A stretch of DNA of 62,887 nucleotides from Gemmatimonadota bacterium (GTDB lineage Bacteria; Gemmatimonadota; Gemmatimonadetes; Longimicrobiales; Gaopeijiaceae): contig JAJDXM010000011.1 of assembly GCA_022823225.1 (NCBI GenBank), positions 1 through 62,887 on the forward strand. The letters are read 5' to 3'. Positions 29,325-37,051 of this stretch are shown here, in pieces (within the stretch, counting starts at the first letter, position 1; each line of letters begins with the position of its first letter). The position numbers were made by a program, and so were the translations under genes. The notes beneath the pieces were generated by a model, which was not told the origin of the DNA, made no database searches, and was given only the letters and a program-made list of their open reading frames with translations.

Positions 29325-31235
29325 ATGTCCCAGTCCGACTACGCGCGCCGGGAGCGCATCCCGGTGCGCGTGATGGAGCATGACGAGATAGCCACCGAGG
29401 TGGCCGGCCGCATCGCGGCCCTCGTTCGCGCGCGCGCAAGCGAGGGACGCGATGCCGTGCTCGGTCTTGCCACCGGTTCCACTCCGCTCGGTGTCTATCG
29501 GGAGCTGATCCGCCTCCACCGCGAAGAGGGGCTCGACTTCGCGAACGTGATTACCTTCAACCTCGACGAGTACTTCCCCATGCGGCCCGGGAGCATTCAC
29601 AGCTACCGCCGCTACATGCACGAGAACCTGTTCGACCACGTCAACATCCGGCCCGGGCGGTGCCACATTCCGCGCGGAGATCTTGCGGAGGACGAGGTGG
29701 ACGCCCACTGCGCGGACTTCGAGCAGCGGATTCGCGACGCGGGCGGGATCGACTTGCAGCTCCTGGGGATCGGGCGCAGCGGCCACATCGGCTTCAACGA
29801 GCCGGGCTCGGGGCGGGACTCGCGCACCCGGCGGATCTACCTCGACACGGTGACCCGCGCCGACGCCGCCGCGGACTTCTTCGGCGAGGAGAACGTGCCG
29901 CCCCAGGCGATCACCATGGGGGTGGCGACGATCCTGGAGGCGCGCGAGGTGGTGCTGCTCGCGACCGGCGAACACAAGGCCGAGATCGTGCTGCGCGCGG
30001 TGGAAGGGGAGGTGAGCGCCGACGTGGCGGCGACATTCCTCCAGCAGCACCCCGCCGCGACCGTGTACCTGGACCCGGCCGCGGCCGCGGAACTCACGGG
30101 CGTCCGCACCCCCTGGCTGGTCGGCGACGTGGAATGGACGCCCCGGCTCGAGACCGACGCGGTCATCTGGCTCAGCCAGCGGACCGGCAAGCCCATTCTG
30201 CACCTCGCGAACGAGGACTACCGGGCACATCACCTGAGCTCGCTGGTCGCGCGGTACAGGTCGGCGGAGCCGCTGAACGGGAAGGTCTTCAACGCGCTCA
30301 TCGCGAAGATCCGGGGCAAGAGCCGGCTTCCGCGCGGCCACGAGGTCCTGATCTTCTCCCCGCACCCTGACGACGACGTGATCTCGATGGGAGGCCTGCT
30401 GCGCAAGCTGGTCGAAAACGGCAACCGGGTGACGGTCGCGTACCAGACCTCGGGGAACATCGCCGTCTTCGACCACGAAGTGCGCCGCCATCTGGATTTC
30501 GTGAAGCGGGCGGCCGGGGTGATGGCGCTGGGCGATCCCGAATCGGTGGAGGAGGCGGTTGCCGCGGTCGAGGCCGAACTGGCGCTCAAGGAACCGGGCG
30601 ATGTCGACGTTCCGGTGGTTCAGGACCTCAAGCGGATCATCCGCGAGAGCGAGGCGTCGGCCGGAATCGAGGTGCTGGGCCTGTCCGGCGGGCAGGCACG
30701 CTTCCTCGACCTGCCGTTCTACAGGACGGGCCAGGTCAGGAAGGACCCCATCTCGGAGCGCGACGTGGAGATCGTTGCCGATGTCCTGGAGGAGGTGCGG
30801 CCGACGATGGTGTTCGCAGTCGGCGACCTCTCCGACCCGCACGGCACCCACCGCATGTGCCTGGAGGCGGTCGAGCGCGCGCTGCCCCGCTACGGCGGCG
30901 ACGCGCCTCTCCTCTGGTACTACCGCGGCGCGTGGCAGGAGTGGGGCGTCAGCGAGGCCACGGTTCTCGTCCCGCTCTCGGAACACGAGCTGCGCGCGAA
31001 GGTTCAGGCGATCTTCCAGCACGAGTCGCAGAAGGATTCGGCGCCCTTCCCCGGGTCGGATCCGCGCGAATTCTGGCAGCGGGTGGTGGACCGCAACCGT
31101 GAAACCGCGGATCTGCTGGCATCGCTCGGGCTGCCCGCGTACCGGGCCATGGAGGCGTACGTGACGATTCGCAATGGCCGCCCGGTCGAGGCGGAGGAGA
31201 TCCCGACGTCGTCGCTTGCTGAAGGGCGCGGCTGA
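29325..31235 (+). CDS. nagB: Glucosamine-6-phosphate deaminase fused to PIG-L deacetylase
   Basis: The 636-aa product has two enzymes in one chain. Residues about 1-260 are a NagB isomerase/deaminase: ATGSTPLGVYRELIRLH, FNLDEYFP, GIGRSGHIGFNEPGS, which converts GlcN6P to Fru6P plus ammonia. Residues about 340-630 are a PIG-L/LmbE-type deacetylase with the zinc motif SPHPDDDVISMGG and DPHGTHRMC. The natural inference is deacetylation of a GlcNAc derivative followed by deamination. The same fusion is common in Bacteroidota. It follows the M16 gene by 18 nt. Confidence 0.9.
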   Translation: MSQSDYARRERIPVRVMEHDEIATEVAGRIAALVRARASEGRDAVLGLATGSTPLGVYRELIRLHREEGLDFANVITFNLDEYFPMRPGSIHSYRRYMHENLFDHVNIRPGRCHIPRGDLAEDEVDAHCADFEQRIRDAGGIDLQLLGIGRSGHIGFNEPGSGRDSRTRRIYLDTVTRADAAADFFGEENVPPQAITMGVATILEAREVVLLATGEHKAEIVLRAVEGEVSADVAATFLQQHPAATVYLDPAAAAELTGVRTPWLVGDVEWTPRLETDAVIWLSQRTGKPILHLANEDYRAHHLSSLVARYRSAEPLNGKVFNALIAKIRGKSRLPRGHEVLIFSPHPDDDVISMGGLLRKLVENGNRVTVAYQTSGNIAVFDHEVRRHLDFVKRAAGVMALGDPESVEEAVAAVEAELALKEPGDVDVPVVQDLKRIIRESEASAGIEVLGLSGGQARFLDLPFYRTGQVRKDPISERDVEIVADVLEEVRPTMVFAVGDLSDPHGTHRMCLEAVERALPRYGGDAPLLWYYRGAWQEWGVSEATVLVPLSEHELRAKVQAIFQHESQKDSAPFPGSDPREFWQRVVDRNRETADLLASLGLPAYRAMEAYVTIRNGRPVEAEEIPTSSLAEGRG

Positions 31236-31335: not shown

Positions 31336-31500
31336 ATGCACGAATGTCCCGTTTGCGAAGCGGAAGTCACCATTTCCGCGGATCCCGTCGAGGGAGAACT
31401 GCTCGAATGCGAGGAGTGCGGCATCGAGCTGGAGATCCTGGCGCTCGACCCCATCACGCTCGGCGAGGCGCCGGACGCGGAGGAGGACTGGGGTGAGTGA
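31336..31500 (+). CDS. lysW: Amino-group carrier protein LysW
   Basis: LysW is a small acidic carrier whose C-terminal glutamate gamma-carboxyl is joined to the alpha-amino group of alpha-aminoadipate or glutamate, so that intermediates are protected and presented to enzymes. The 54-aa protein has the zinc ribbon Cys4-Cys7 and Cys25-Cys28 and the diagnostic C-terminus EDWGE ending at Glu54, the same length as the Thermus protein. The gene is directly followed by lysX. An upstream in-frame GTG exists, but the extra residues do not fit the family. Confidence 0.95.
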   Translation: MHECPVCEAEVTISADPVEGELLECEECGIELEILALDPITLGEAPDAEEDWGE

Positions 31501-31569
31501 CCGGTGGCGCTGCGCGCGGCCCGGGCCCGCTCCCGGCTCGCCGACCCCCGGCCCGGCCGGAGCCCGTGC

Positions 31570-32406
31570 ATGAGGGTCGGGTTCCTCCATTCCCTCATCC
31601 GCAGGGACGAGAAGCTGCTGATCGCCGAGCTGCGGAGGCGCCGCGACATGGAGATCGTCTTCCTGGACGACCGCCGCCTCGTCTTCGACCTGGAGACGCG
31701 GCCGCCTGTGGACCTTGTGCTGGAGCGCTCCATCAACCACTCCCGCGCGATGCACGCGCTGCGCCTCTTCGAGGGGGTCGGCACGGCGTGCGTCAACGCC
31801 TACGAGGTCGCGCGGCGCTGCGGCGACAAGATCCTTACGGCCGCCTCGCTCCGCGATCACGGGGTGCCGCAGCCGGAGGTGCGGATCGCCTTCACGCCCG
31901 AGTCGGCGCTGGCGGCGGTCGAGGAGCTGGGGTACCCCGCCGTGCTCAAGCCCGCGGTGGGCTCGTGGGGCCGGCTCCTGTCGAGAGTGAACGACCGCGA
32001 CGCGGCCGAGACGGTCCTGGAGCACAAGGCGATCCTGGGGAGCTACCATCACTCGATCTTCTTCGTGCAGCAGTACGTGGAGAAGCGCGGCCGCGACATC
32101 CGCGCCTTCGTGGTGGGCGACGAGTGCGTCGCGGCGATCTACCGCACGTCGGATCACTGGATCACCAACACCGCACGGGGTGGCCGGGCGAGCAATTGCC
32201 CCGTGACGCCTGATCTCGCCGGGATCTCCCTGCGGGCCGCCCAGGCGATGGGCGGGGGCGTGCTGGCGGTCGACCTTTTCGAGACCGGCGGCGGGTTCCT
32301 CGTCAACGAGGTCAACTACACGATGGAGTTCCGGAACAGCATCGACGTGACGGGGGTGAACATCCCCGAGCGCATCGTGTCGTATCTGCGGAGAGCGGTG
32401 CCGTGA
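31570..32406 (+). CDS. lysX: LysW-glutamate/alpha-aminoadipate ligase LysX
   Basis: This ATP-grasp ligase attaches the amino acid to LysW. From ATG 31570 it is 278 aa. It shows NAYEVARRCGDKILT, YPAVLKPAVGSWGRLLSRV, YVEKRGRDIRAFVVGDE, HWITNTARGG and the C-terminal VDLFETGGGFLVNEVNYTMEF, closely parallel to Thermus LysX. An in-frame GTG at 31504 would add 22 unsupported residues. The stop codon overlaps the lysY GTG (GTGA). Substrate choice between lysine and arginine precursors cannot be read with certainty. Confidence 0.93.
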   Translation: MRVGFLHSLIRRDEKLLIAELRRRRDMEIVFLDDRRLVFDLETRPPVDLVLERSINHSRAMHALRLFEGVGTACVNAYEVARRCGDKILTAASLRDHGVPQPEVRIAFTPESALAAVEELGYPAVLKPAVGSWGRLLSRVNDRDAAETVLEHKAILGSYHHSIFFVQQYVEKRGRDIRAFVVGDECVAAIYRTSDHWITNTARGGRASNCPVTPDLAGISLRAAQAMGGGVLAVDLFETGGGFLVNEVNYTMEFRNSIDVTGVNIPERIVSYLRRAVP

Positions 32407-33467
32407 TCCGGGTCGCGATCGCGGGCGGCTCCGGATACGCGGGCGGCGAACTCCTGCGACTGCTGCTGGCCCACCCGGACGCCGAGGTGGCGCAGGTGAC
32501 CTCGGAGCGCCTCGCGGGGAAGTTCGTGCACCGCACCCACCCCAACCTCCGCGGCCTCACGCGGCTTCGGTACGTGTCGCTCAGCGAGCTGTCATCCTGC
32601 GACGTTGTCTTCTCGTGCCTGCCGCACGGCGCGTCCGCACGCCACATCGACCCCTTCCTCGCCAATGCGGAGCGCGTGGTGGACCTCGGCGCGGATTTCC
32701 GCTTGGGCGATGCCGGCGAATACGAGCGCTTCTACGGGGAGCCGCACCCGCGCCCCGACCTCCTTGGCCGCTTCGTCTACGGGATACCGGAGGTGAACCG
32801 GGAGGCGCTGCGGACGAGCCTGGTGGCGTGCGCGGGCTGCAACGCCACGGCCTCCGTCCTGGCGCTGCGCCCACTCTTCCTGGAACAGGTGGAGAAGTCG
32901 GTGGTGATCGAAGTGAAGGTCGGGTCCAGCGAAGCGGGCAATCGGGCGAGCGAGGCCAGCCACCACCCCGAGCGCAGCGGCGCGACGCGTTCCTACAAGC
33001 CCACCGGGCACCGCCACCAGGCCGAGATCCGGGCCGTGCTGGGCGGAACGGGGGCCGGTACAACCGGCGCCGGGCCGGGCGCGCCGGTGTGCGCCATCCA
33101 CTTGTCGGCCACCGCCGTCGAGATGGTGCGGGGGATCCTGGCCACTTGCCACGTCTTCGTGAACCGGGACATCGACGAGAAAGAGCTCTGGAAGATCTAC
33201 CGGCGCGCGTACGCCGATGAGCCGTTCGTGCGGATCGTGAAGGAGCGCACGGGTATCCACCGCTACCCGGACCCCAAGCTGCTGGCCGGGTCCAACTACT
33301 GCGACATCGGCTTCGAGAAGGATCCGCACGCGGGGCGGGTGGTGGTGATGGCCGCGATCGACAACCTGATGAAGGGCGCCGCGGGGCAGGCCGTCCAGGC
33401 GTTCAACATCATGCACGGGCTGCCGGAAAGACGCGCCCTGGAGTTCCCGGGGCTCCACCCGGCCTGA
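32403..33467 (+). CDS. lysY: LysW-aminoadipate/glutamate semialdehyde reductase (ArgC family)
   Basis: This NADPH-dependent reductase converts the LysW-bound acyl phosphate to the semialdehyde. The 354-aa protein has the Rossmann motif AGGSGYAGGELLRLL (7-21), CLPHGAS, and the catalytic cysteine in CAGCNATA (Cys146). SNYCDIGFE and VVMAAIDNLMKGAAGQAVQ follow near the C-terminus. It overlaps lysX by 4 nt. Operon position makes a LysW-linked substrate much more likely than free N-acetylglutamyl phosphate. Confidence 0.93.
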   Translation: MIRVAIAGGSGYAGGELLRLLLAHPDAEVAQVTSERLAGKFVHRTHPNLRGLTRLRYVSLSELSSCDVVFSCLPHGASARHIDPFLANAERVVDLGADFRLGDAGEYERFYGEPHPRPDLLGRFVYGIPEVNREALRTSLVACAGCNATASVLALRPLFLEQVEKSVVIEVKVGSSEAGNRASEASHHPERSGATRSYKPTGHRHQAEIRAVLGGTGAGTTGAGPGAPVCAIHLSATAVEMVRGILATCHVFVNRDIDEKELWKIYRRAYADEPFVRIVKERTGIHRYPDPKLLAGSNYCDIGFEKDPHAGRVVVMAAIDNLMKGAAGQAVQAFNIMHGLPERRALEFPGLHPA

Positions 33468-33494: not shown

Positions 33495-34226
33495 GTGTGC
33501 CGCCTGCTCTGCGTCCGCTCCGGTGGCGATGGCTTCGAGATGGAGGAGCACCTGGCCGCGCTGGCCCGGATCGCCCGTGACAGCAGCGAGTACCAGGGAC
33601 ACGGCTGGGGGTGTGCGTGGCTTCCGGCGGAGGAGTCGCGCCGCGGCGGACAGGACGCGGCACCCCGGGCGGACGGCGCCGGCGTCACGGCCTCCGGCGG
33701 CGGCCGGCGGGGCCCCTGGCGCCTCTACCACGACATCGCGCCGATCTGGGCGGACGGGGGGCGGCCATCGGGCCGGGCGACGCTCCTGGTCGCCCACGCC
33801 CGCAGCGCGTTTCGCGACGAGGGCATTCGCGTCGAGAACAACATGCCGTTCACCGACGGCGAGCGGGTCTTCGCCTTCAACGGGGAGCTGCATGGGGTGC
33901 GCATCCGGGAGCGCGGCCGGATCGGCGCCGAGAAGGTCTTCAACTTCGTGAAGCGCTTCGACCGGGGAGACTTCGCGGCCGCGCTCGTCCTGGGTTTCGA
34001 TGCCATCGAGCGCCGGACCCGCCGCATGCGCGCCATGAACGTCGTCGTCGCCGACACCGGGCACCGGGTCCACTTCGCATCTCGCTTCCGCGAGAATCCA
34101 GCGTATTTTCAAATGCACATGGCGGTGGCGGATGGGGCCCAAATCCTCTGCTCCGAGCCCTATCCGGCCGCGGTCGCGCGGATGCGCTGGACTCCGGTCG
34201 CGAACGGCTACACCGGAACCCTCTGA
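33495..34226 (+). CDS. Class II glutamine amidotransferase-fold protein inside the lys operon
   Basis: The 243-aa product begins (V/M)-CRLLC, so after Met removal the N-terminal Cys would be an Ntn-hydrolase nucleophile. It also shows LLVAHARSAFRDE, ENNMPF, and the oxyanion-hole FNGELHG, as in EgtC/YafJ-type class II amidotransferases. No synthase domain follows. It lies between lysY (27-nt gap) and lysZ (18-nt gap) on the same strand, so it is cotranscribed with the LysW pathway. Free-standing enzymes of this fold hydrolyse gamma-glutamyl amides; here it may release product from LysW (inference). It could instead supply ammonia or serve an unrelated role. Confidence 0.85.
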   Translation: MCRLLCVRSGGDGFEMEEHLAALARIARDSSEYQGHGWGCAWLPAEESRRGGQDAAPRADGAGVTASGGGRRGPWRLYHDIAPIWADGGRPSGRATLLVAHARSAFRDEGIRVENNMPFTDGERVFAFNGELHGVRIRERGRIGAEKVFNFVKRFDRGDFAAALVLGFDAIERRTRRMRAMNVVVADTGHRVHFASRFRENPAYFQMHMAVADGAQILCSEPYPAAVARMRWTPVANGYTGTL

Positions 34227-34244: not shown

Positions 34245-35036
34245 ATGCTTCTGATCAAGGTCGGTGGGGGAGCTAACATCAACCTCGACGGGATCGCGCG
34301 CGATGTCGCCGAGTTGGACGATCGGATCATCCTCGTGCACGGGGCGAATGCCGCGCGCAATGAACTGGCCGAGCGCCTCGGCGTGGAGATACGGGTCCTG
34401 ACGTCTGTCTCCGGGCACACCAGCGTATACTCCGACCAGGAGCTGATCGACCTCATGCTCATGGCGTATTCGGGGCTTCGCAACAAGCGGCTCGTCGAGC
34501 TGCTCCACCAGCACGGCGTGAACGCGATCGGCCTGACCGGCCTGGACGGTGCGCTGGTGCGCGGGATGCGCAACAAGGGGATTCGCGTCCGCGAAGGAGA
34601 CAAGACGCTGATCAAGCGGGACCTGTCCGGCAAGCCGGTCGCCGTCAACCGGAAGCTGGTGGGGTGGCTGCTGGACAACGGCTACACGCCGGTCATCACC
34701 TTCCCGGTGATCGACGAGCGCAATGTGGCGATCAACTCGGACAACGACGACATCGTGACCCTCCTGGCACTGGCGATGCAACCGGACTGGGTGATCCAGC
34801 TGATCGAGGCGCCGGGTTTCCTGGAGGACCCGGACGACCCCGAGTCCGTCGTGCCCGTGATACCGCCGCAGCAGCTGCCCCGGTGGGAACGCCGGGTGAC
34901 GGGCCGCATGAAGCGCAAGATGCACGCCATCCGCCAACTGGTGCAGCCCGGGTGTTCGAAGGTGCTGATCGCCGACGGGCGCACCGAGTCGCCGATCACG
35001 GACGCGATGGCGGGGAAGGGGACCGTGATCGGGTGA
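34245..35036 (+). CDS. lysZ: LysW-aminoadipate/glutamate kinase LysZ
   Basis: This amino-acid-kinase-family enzyme phosphorylates the side-chain carboxyl of the LysW-bound substrate. The 263-aa protein has LLIKVGGGANIN (1-14), LVHGANAARNELAE, the NKRLVELLHQHGVNAIGLTG segment, and the C-terminal GRMKRKMHAI and ADGRTESPI motifs, all close to Thermus LysZ and distinct from free-standing ArgB. It follows the amidotransferase-fold gene by 18 nt. Confidence 0.93.
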   Translation: MLLIKVGGGANINLDGIARDVAELDDRIILVHGANAARNELAERLGVEIRVLTSVSGHTSVYSDQELIDLMLMAYSGLRNKRLVELLHQHGVNAIGLTGLDGALVRGMRNKGIRVREGDKTLIKRDLSGKPVAVNRKLVGWLLDNGYTPVITFPVIDERNVAINSDNDDIVTLLALAMQPDWVIQLIEAPGFLEDPDDPESVVPVIPPQQLPRWERRVTGRMKRKMHAIRQLVQPGCSKVLIADGRTESPITDAMAGKGTVIG

Positions 35037-35089: not shown

Positions 35090-35105
35090 CATATGAGCAT
35101 ATGAG
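35090..35105 (+). repeat. Tandem CATATGAG repeat at the lysJ start
   Basis: Two perfect copies of CATATGAG (35090-35097, 35098-35105) lie at the start of lysJ. The first copy creates a three-codon minicistron, ATG AGC ATA TGA, beginning at 35093, whose stop codon overlaps the lysJ ATG at 35101. No Shine-Dalgarno sequence is visible, so translational coupling through this mini-ORF is possible. Confidence 0.5.
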
Positions 35106-36288
35106 CATGTTTTCGCCCGGAGCCGCTCGCAGCGTCGAGCGCCGCTACGCGCTCGAGGTCTTTCCGAAGCGCGACATCACGCTGGTGGAGGGGCGGGGCG
35201 CGGAGGTGCACGACGACCGCGGGCGCCGCTACATCGATTGCGTCGCCGGAATCGGTGTGGCGAGCATCGGGCACGGCAACCGGGCGGTCGCGGAGGCACT
35301 GTCCTCCCAGGCGCGCCGGATCGTCACCTGCCCGGGGATCTTCTACAACGACACGCGGGCCAGGCTGCTCGAGAAGCTGGCGTCGATTGCGCCGCCCGGT
35401 CTGACCCGCGGCTTTCTCTGCAACTCGGGGGCGGAGAGCGTCGAGGCGGCGATCAAGTTCGCGCGCCTGGCCACGGGACGCCCCGGGGTCGTGTCGGCGA
35501 TGCGCGGGTTCCACGGGCGCACCCTCGGAGCGCTCAGCGCAACCCACAAGAAAGAGTACCGCCAGGCATTCGAACCCCTGGTGCCCGGCTTCTCGTTCGT
35601 GCCGTTCAACAGACCCGGGAAGCTCCTGGATGCCGTTGGGGAGGAGACGGCTGCGGTCGTGATCGAGCCGGTGCAGGGCGAAGGCGGGATCCGGCCGGCG
35701 AGCGCCGAGTTTCTGCAGGCGGCGCGAGAGGCGTGCGACGACGCAGGGGCGCTCCTGGTCTTCGACGAGATCCAGACGGGTTTTTGCCGGACCGGCAGGA
35801 TGTTCGCGTGCGAGCACCACGAAGTCACCCCCGACATGCTCTGCCTGGCCAAGGCGATCGCGGGTGGCGTGCCGCTGGGCGCCGTGCTGGCGAACGGCCG
35901 GATCCGGCCGCCGCCCGGAAAGCACGGCACGACCTTCGGCGGCAATCCGCTGGTGTGCGCCGCGGCCCTTGCGGCAATCGAGTTCATGCAGGAAGAGCGT
36001 CTGGACGAGCGCGCGGCGGCCCTGGGGGCACGGTTCCGGGAGCGGTTCGAACCGAGGCTGCCCAGACGGGTGCGGGCGCTGCGGCAGGTGGGGCTGATGA
36101 TCGGGGTCGAGCTGCGGGAGCGGTGCCGTCCCCACATCGATGCGCTGGCGAAAGCGGGCGTCTTGGCGCTGCCGGCGGGCACGACGGTGATCCGGCTTCT
36201 GCCGCCGCTGGTGATCAAGGAAGAGCAGATCGACGAGGTGGTGGAGGTGCTGGTGCGGGTGCTGGGTTTACCGGGGCGGACGAAGTAA
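35101..36288 (+). CDS. lysJ: LysW-lysine/ornithine aminotransferase LysJ (ArgD-like)
   Basis: This class III PLP-dependent aminotransferase converts the LysW-bound semialdehyde to the amine using glutamate. The 395-aa protein has CNSGAESVEAAIK, the aspartate in VFDEIQTGFCRTG, and the Schiff-base Lys251 in LAKAIAGGVPLG, followed by GTTFGGNPLVCAAA. ATG 35101 is used here; ATG 35107 is an alternative. It is the last gene of the lys cluster; a LysK-type M20 hydrolase does not follow. Confidence 0.93.
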   Translation: MSMFSPGAARSVERRYALEVFPKRDITLVEGRGAEVHDDRGRRYIDCVAGIGVASIGHGNRAVAEALSSQARRIVTCPGIFYNDTRARLLEKLASIAPPGLTRGFLCNSGAESVEAAIKFARLATGRPGVVSAMRGFHGRTLGALSATHKKEYRQAFEPLVPGFSFVPFNRPGKLLDAVGEETAAVVIEPVQGEGGIRPASAEFLQAAREACDDAGALLVFDEIQTGFCRTGRMFACEHHEVTPDMLCLAKAIAGGVPLGAVLANGRIRPPPGKHGTTFGGNPLVCAAALAAIEFMQEERLDERAAALGARFRERFEPRLPRRVRALRQVGLMIGVELRERCRPHIDALAKAGVLALPAGTTVIRLLPPLVIKEEQIDEVVEVLVRVLGLPGRTK

Positions 36289-36448: not shown

Positions 36449-37051
36449 ATGAAGTTCTTGAACGGCGCGTCGGTGATGTCGGCGGCATTGGCGCTCGTCC
36501 TCTTCGTCCTGATCGGCTGTGAGGGCCGGTCGGGCTCCGAGGAGGCCGGGGGCGACGAGGCCGAGGTGCAGATGGAGGACGTCAACCCCGCCATGGCCGC
36601 GGAGGCCGAAGAGAGCGAGGGGGAAGGCGGGGAGGCCCGGGGTGAAGAGCACGGCGAAGGCGGCGAGCACGCGGAGGGCGGCGAGCACGGCGAGGGTGGC
36701 GAGCACGGGGAGGAGGGCGAGCACGGCGAGGAGGGCGAGCACGGCGAGGAGGGCGAAGAAGGCGGCGAGTACATCGGTCGCGACGAGAGCTGGGACGCCA
36801 CCCGCCGCGGGATTCGCCTGACCCTCTCCTACGACGCGGACCGTGATGCCTTCGTGGGGATGGTGGAGAACACCACCGACACCACCGTGTGCGCCGTTCG
36901 GGTCGAGGTCCACCTGGCGGGCGGCACGGAGCTCGGACCCACGGAACGCCGGGACATCGCGGCCGGGCAGTCCGGCGCCGTCGAGTTGCCCGCAGGGGGC
37001 GAGGACTTCGAGAGCTGGACCGCGCACCCCGAGATGTCGGCCTGCGGATAG
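36449..37051 (+). CDS. Lipoprotein with Glu/Gly/His repeats and an FxLYD-like domain
   Basis: The 200-aa product has a signal peptide with lipobox FVLIGC (Cys24). An acidic region follows, then an array of GEHGE(G/E) repeats at residues 65-107 that alternates Glu, Gly and His. The C-terminal domain (about 120-200) contains FVGMVENTTDTTVCAVRVEVHL, which resembles FxLYD domains. GGAGG sits 7 nt before ATG 36449. Histidine/glutamate repeats suggest divalent-metal binding in the periplasm or on the surface. This is inference; I know no exact homologue. Confidence 0.75.
   Translation: MKFLNGASVMSAALALVLFVLIGCEGRSGSEEAGGDEAEVQMEDVNPAMAAEAEESEGEGGEARGEEHGEGGEHAEGGEHGEGGEHGEEGEHGEEGEHGEEGEEGGEYIGRDESWDATRRGIRLTLSYDADRDAFVGMVENTTDTTVCAVRVEVHLAGGTELGPTERRDIAAGQSGAVELPAGGEDFESWTAHPEMSACG
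36641..36769 (+). repeat. In-gene repeat encoding GEHGE units
   Basis: Near-identical 15-18-bp units (GGCGAGCACGGCGAGGAG type) are repeated seven or so times within the lipoprotein gene. They encode the Glu/Gly/His tract. Such arrays change copy number by slippage, so length may vary between strains. Confidence 0.75.

Follow-up and report, generated by a model that had tools for sequence, protein, structure and literature searches.

Amino acid synthesis on a carrier protein and its release enzymes

Lysine or arginine synthesis on the carrier protein LysW (or ArgW) has been described in Thermus, Sulfolobus and Natrinema, where LysW ends in Glu and the product is released by LysK/ArgE (PMC10433800). 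This hydrolase is an M20 metallopeptidase, represented by the family models TIGR01902 and NF003367. A gamma-glutamyl amide is also cut by EgtC of ergothioneine biosynthesis (PDB 4zfj, 4zfk, 4zfl), a stand-alone enzyme of the class II amidotransferase fold, to which the glutaminase domains of GlmS and PurF belong as well. In the Pup system, Dop deamidates the C-terminal Gln of Pup and cuts the gamma-glutamyl isopeptide on the same residue (PMC8599861).

Here, a LysW operon is described in which LysK is missing and a class II amidotransferase-fold protein of the Ntn type (N-terminal Cys), termed GAT, is encoded among the pathway genes. GAT is very probably a LysW-specific gamma-glutamyl amidohydrolase that replaces the metallo-hydrolase LysK (ArgE type) without being its orthologue. 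An earlier note on this DNA had suggested such a release enzyme, and the exclusion of LysK, the place of GAT in the operon, its fold and its residues give that suggestion strong support.

An operon without LysK

The window, the whole stretch of 62,887 nucleotides analysed, is contig 59 of a 4.19 Mb genome with a completeness of 96.4%. It holds an intact operon in the order lysW-lysX-argC/lysY-GAT-lysZ-lysJ and shares LysW-EDWGE, LysX, LysY, LysZ and LysJ with the Thermus, Sulfolobus and Natrinema systems. All genes lie on the forward strand. The carrier LysW/ArgW (31336..31500; 54 aa) has the zinc-ribbon Cys residues and the C-terminus EEDWGE, and matches TIGR01206 (55.8 bits, cut-off 53.2) and PF21344. 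It is followed by the ATP-grasp ligase LysX/ArgX with a GSWGR motif (31570..32406; TIGR02144, 328 bits, cut-off 275.6), whose frame is open from a GTG at 31504; the ATG at 31570 was chosen because the family match begins there. Next come the LysY/ArgC-type reductase (32403..33467; TIGR01850, 378 bits), GAT, the LysZ-type [LysW]-aminoadipate/glutamate kinase (34245..35036; NF010659, 249 bits, cut-off 223) and, as the final gene, the LysJ/ArgD-type aminotransferase (35101..36288; TIGR00707, 418 bits, over cut-off).

The GAT reading frame (33495..34226, +) starts with GTG and encodes 243 aa. Its N-terminus is MCRLLCVRS, and it contains HARSA and FNGEL, in agreement with the Cys2, AHAR and FNG motifs reported earlier; the reported gaps of 27 nt on the lysY side and 18 nt on the lysZ side are likewise correct. 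Around the operon, no promoter or terminator signal rose above chance, and the window has no Rfam matches.

Two neighbouring genes were also recorded. Upstream of the operon, 29325-31235 (+) encodes a fusion of a glucosamine-6-phosphate deaminase-like domain with a PIG-L deacetylase domain (NF002557, 867 bits). Just downstream, the predicted product of the ORF at 36450-37051 (+) is lipoprotein-like and contains a long repeat rich in Glu, His and Gly (GEHGEGGEH...).

The M20 release enzyme is absent from the operon, as the earlier note had claimed and a scan with curated models confirmed. The genome search for lysK that it had called for gave the same answer, with no LysK over the family cut-off in the whole 4.19 Mb (96.4% complete). 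Five M20 proteins are encoded in the genome, the best of which scores 98.6 bits against NF003367 '[LysW]-lysine hydrolase', for which the cut-off is 363. Their substrates are not assigned and they could in principle act as alternative releasers, which counts against the proposed role of GAT.

Mutual exclusion of GAT and LysK

Presence and absence across genomes were counted from family searches. Of 249 sampled genomes from the phylum, 34 encode true LysX, taken as a TIGR02144 score over 250 bits, and 32 of these have GAT and lack LysK. The remaining two (G013 and G198) have LysK over cut-off, placed after LysJ, and no GAT. LysX-free genomes of the phylum yielded one weak, unrelated match to GAT (E 8.8e-6). 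No LysK over cut-off was detected in the 31 other GAT genomes of this sample, nor in 46 further GAT genomes (0/46), the majority of which bear the label of another phylum.

A scan of 84,980 species returned 188 relatives, of which 80 were kept for reading of their loci. These carry the labels Gemmatimonadetes, Acidobacteria, Gammaproteobacteria, Spirochaetia, Binatia, Calditrichota, Phycisphaerae and others, covering at least six groups. GAT lies within the operon in nearly all of the approximately 80 loci, and the order LysW-LysX-LysY-GAT-LysZ-LysJ is kept, with few exceptions, wherever the contig allows, which excludes a chance arrangement. LysK is never present in these loci. G160 retains GAT on another contig although its operon has been split. 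Ergothioneine genes (egtA, B, D, E) do not characterise the neighbourhood of GAT; almost all loci with enough sequence around GAT show the LysW operon there instead.

The same division is seen in a second phylum, that of an Acidobacteria-labelled record (G274), represented by 396 genomes, 43 with LysX. Their LysX loci comprise 30 LysK operons, 11 GAT operons, none with both and two cut by contig ends. A genome-wide search of these 43 genomes and 17 more with a wider alignment found the GAT family at E < 1e-60 in the same 11 only. In three of the 11 operons (L245, L280, L282), GAT follows LysJ, the place occupied by LysK in other operons. The survey of lysW operons advocated by the earlier note thus found GAT beside lysK in no operon that was read.

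GAT and LysK share the proposed reaction, the step in the pathway and a place in the operon; in three loci GAT also has LysK's position after lysJ. However, their folds and chemistries are unrelated (a cysteine Ntn-type enzyme versus a metal-dependent M20 enzyme), and they were not seen together in any locus read. A LysX+LysY tree with 100 rows needs about one change to account for GAT versus LysK, so that the exclusion counts reflect a deep lineage difference rather than many independent events. Operons with GAT and operons with LysK form two ancient lineages, both present in the same phyla, and do not stem from many recent replacements.

Some GAT-type operons show other rearrangements. LysZ and LysJ are fused in one ORF of ~700 aa directly after GAT in L099:880-2979 (-) and L100:5768-7894 (-), from genomes G164 and G226, while one operon, L193:4260-5932 (+), has two tandem LysX genes.

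LysW ending in glutamine

LysW ends in EDWGQ in 22 GAT loci and in Glu in 63 of the 85 GAT loci, including those of the window's relatives; the window's own LysW is encoded with a Glu end. In the 31 LysK loci in which LysW was read, the last residue is always Glu. The Gln-ended loci, all with GAT-type operons, are L101, L102, L104, L105, L154, L157, L160, L165, L173/L242, L174, L175, L177, L178, L181, L186, L189, L194, L195, L244, L254, L281 and L283, a few of which come from identical or almost identical genomes. The codon preceding the stop is an unambiguous CAG or CAA. By parsimony, Glu and Gln were exchanged about 11 times, each time within the GAT part of the tree; were changes proportional to branch length, of which the GAT part makes up 70%, the chance of this would be ~0.02, only a moderate test. 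The open-access literature searched yielded no report of an EDWGQ LysW or of a GAT enzyme.

LysX requires a carboxylate on its carrier, so a Gln-ended LysW must first be deamidated. GAT is the sole protein of the operon suited to this, and deamidation and product release cleave the same gamma-amide. We infer that in Gln-ended lineages GAT probably also deamidates LysW, as a second role. Dop offers a parallel to such an enzyme, with deamidation and release united at the C-terminus of a small protein. However, Dop has a glutamine-synthetase fold, needs ATP-derived phosphate and acts on protein conjugates, and it has no homology to GAT.

Could deamidation be the only function of GAT, maturing LysW from Gln to Glu while an M20 enzyme encoded elsewhere releases the product? 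The restriction of Gln ends to GAT loci and the presence of M20 proteins without an assigned substrate in the genome speak for this, but we regard it as very unlikely. GAT is kept where LysW already ends in Glu, in 63/85 GAT loci and in the window, and deamidation is thus not its only role; moreover, no searched GAT genome has a LysK over cut-off, and in three loci GAT occupies the final operon position otherwise held by LysK.

Product of the pathway

Several genes bear on what is released. ArgJ was found in 0/32 GAT genomes of the phylum sample. Among the GAT genomes examined, argG is present, lysA of the diaminopimelate route occurs in nearly all, and homocitrate synthase was not found at cut-off. 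In the window's genome, argH adjoins argG, and the operon ArgC is the only ArgC found in nine genomes, including this one. From these observations taken together, the product here is probably ornithine (for arginine) rather than lysine. A LysW-glutamate route has been described in host-associated Gaopeijiales (PMC11651109), in agreement with an ornithine product. The Asn-Tyr-Thr signature of LysX (window 31504-32406) conflicts with the ornithine reading, as it resembles the aminoadipate type; in Natrinema, the LysX motif alone was not decisive for specificity (PMC10433800). The conserved flank clusters, inspected by eye, showed no recognisable arginine or lysine genes that could serve as a clue.

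A second ArgC occurs beside a GAT-type LysW operon in genus g55 and some gammaproteobacteria (listed for G041, G109, G133 and gammaproteobacterial genomes). For this reason, the ornithine assignment is not carried over to them.

The lack of ArgJ also bears on the fate of LysW. ArgJ recycles acetyl groups, and on this model GAT would be a transamidase, its Cys2 moving LysW directly from ornithine to a fresh glutamate. The activated carrier would thereby stay in use, with LysX just replenishing the pool. An enzyme of this fold would be expected to pass through an acyl-enzyme at the LysW gamma-carboxyl, and none of the 32 GAT genomes in the phylum sample has ArgJ. Yet ArgJ is missing from many relatives without GAT too, LysX is always kept and strongly conserved, and EgtC, the nearest relative, acts as a hydrolase. 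Transamidation in place of hydrolysis is, in our judgement, also very unlikely.

Fold and active site

GAT has no Pfam match at E 0.001, and it scores 34.3 bits against the EgtC model TIGR03442, far below the cut-off of 218.65. Its AlphaFold model is good (mean pLDDT 87.5) and is closest to EgtC among solved structures (Z 24.5, rmsd 2.1, 199 residues aligned), with GlmS and PurF ranking behind. Model and fold search agree with the earlier note's statement that GAT consists of the class II amidotransferase fold without a synthase domain. EgtC and GAT are both stand-alone proteins of this fold, and GAT would share the cleavage of a gamma-glutamyl amide, but their identity is ~18%.

The residues that define class II glutamine amidotransferases, namely an N-terminal Cys, an Arg and an Asn-Gly pair, are invariant in the GAT family (Cys2, Arg103, Asn129, Gly130) and conserved across the fold class. 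In the glutaminase domains of GlmS and PurF, the Arg serves the alpha-carboxylate and Asn-Gly the oxyanion hole. These domains differ from GAT, which lacks a synthase domain, has the LysW operon as its conserved partner and carries Gly where they have an Asp. This Gly144 is invariant in 104/104 GAT sequences, while GlmS, EgtC and 3mdn have Asp there, where the next helix begins; the mapping comes from MAFFT and HMMER sequence alignments, without superposition, with GlmS and with fragments of EgtC and 3mdn, all distant proteins. A profile alignment of the GAT family with GlmS (hhalign) was too weak to map residues. In GlmS, as in class II amidotransferases, this Asp binds free glutamine by its alpha-amino group. 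The Gly found at this position in the GAT family would fit the terminal Glu of LysW as a substrate, in which the alpha-carboxylate is free and the alpha-nitrogen acylated.

Very unlikely too is a role for GAT as an ordinary glutaminase, or as the subunit of an amidotransferase, supplying ammonia or glutamate to the pathway: the fold, with its catalytic Cys, Arg and Asn-Gly, would suit such a role, but the Asp for the alpha-amino group of glutamine has given way to an invariant Gly, we know of no step in the LysW pathway that consumes ammonia, the release step would be left without an enzyme, and the exclusion of LysK would go unexplained.

Proposed mechanism and significance

In the proposed mechanism, LysZ, LysY and LysJ would build LysW-gamma-ornithine, the gamma-amide of which would be attacked at the LysW C-terminus by Cys2, made N-terminal by removal of Met1. 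Asn129 and Gly130 would form the oxyanion hole, and Arg103 would grip the terminal Glu by its free alpha-carboxylate. Gly144, in place of the glutaminase Asp, may leave space for the peptide chain entering via the acylated alpha-nitrogen. Ornithine would depart, and water would then free LysW. In relatives with a Gln-ended LysW, the same active site would first deamidate Gln to Glu. More tentatively, GAT may be a Pup/Dop-like system built on a cysteine Ntn-type enzyme, which deamidates Gln-ended LysW, later cuts the amino acid from the same residue and possibly transfers LysW to a new glutamate, recycling the carrier without ATP.

GAT is thus a candidate enzyme for a missing step of the carrier pathway in Gemmatimonadota and in records labelled Acidobacteria, Gammaproteobacteria, Binatia, Calditrichota, Spirochaetia and Phycisphaerae. 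If the proposed role is correct, the class II amidotransferase fold would gain a protein C-terminus as a substrate, and calls of arginine auxotrophy would change for many uncultured bacteria.
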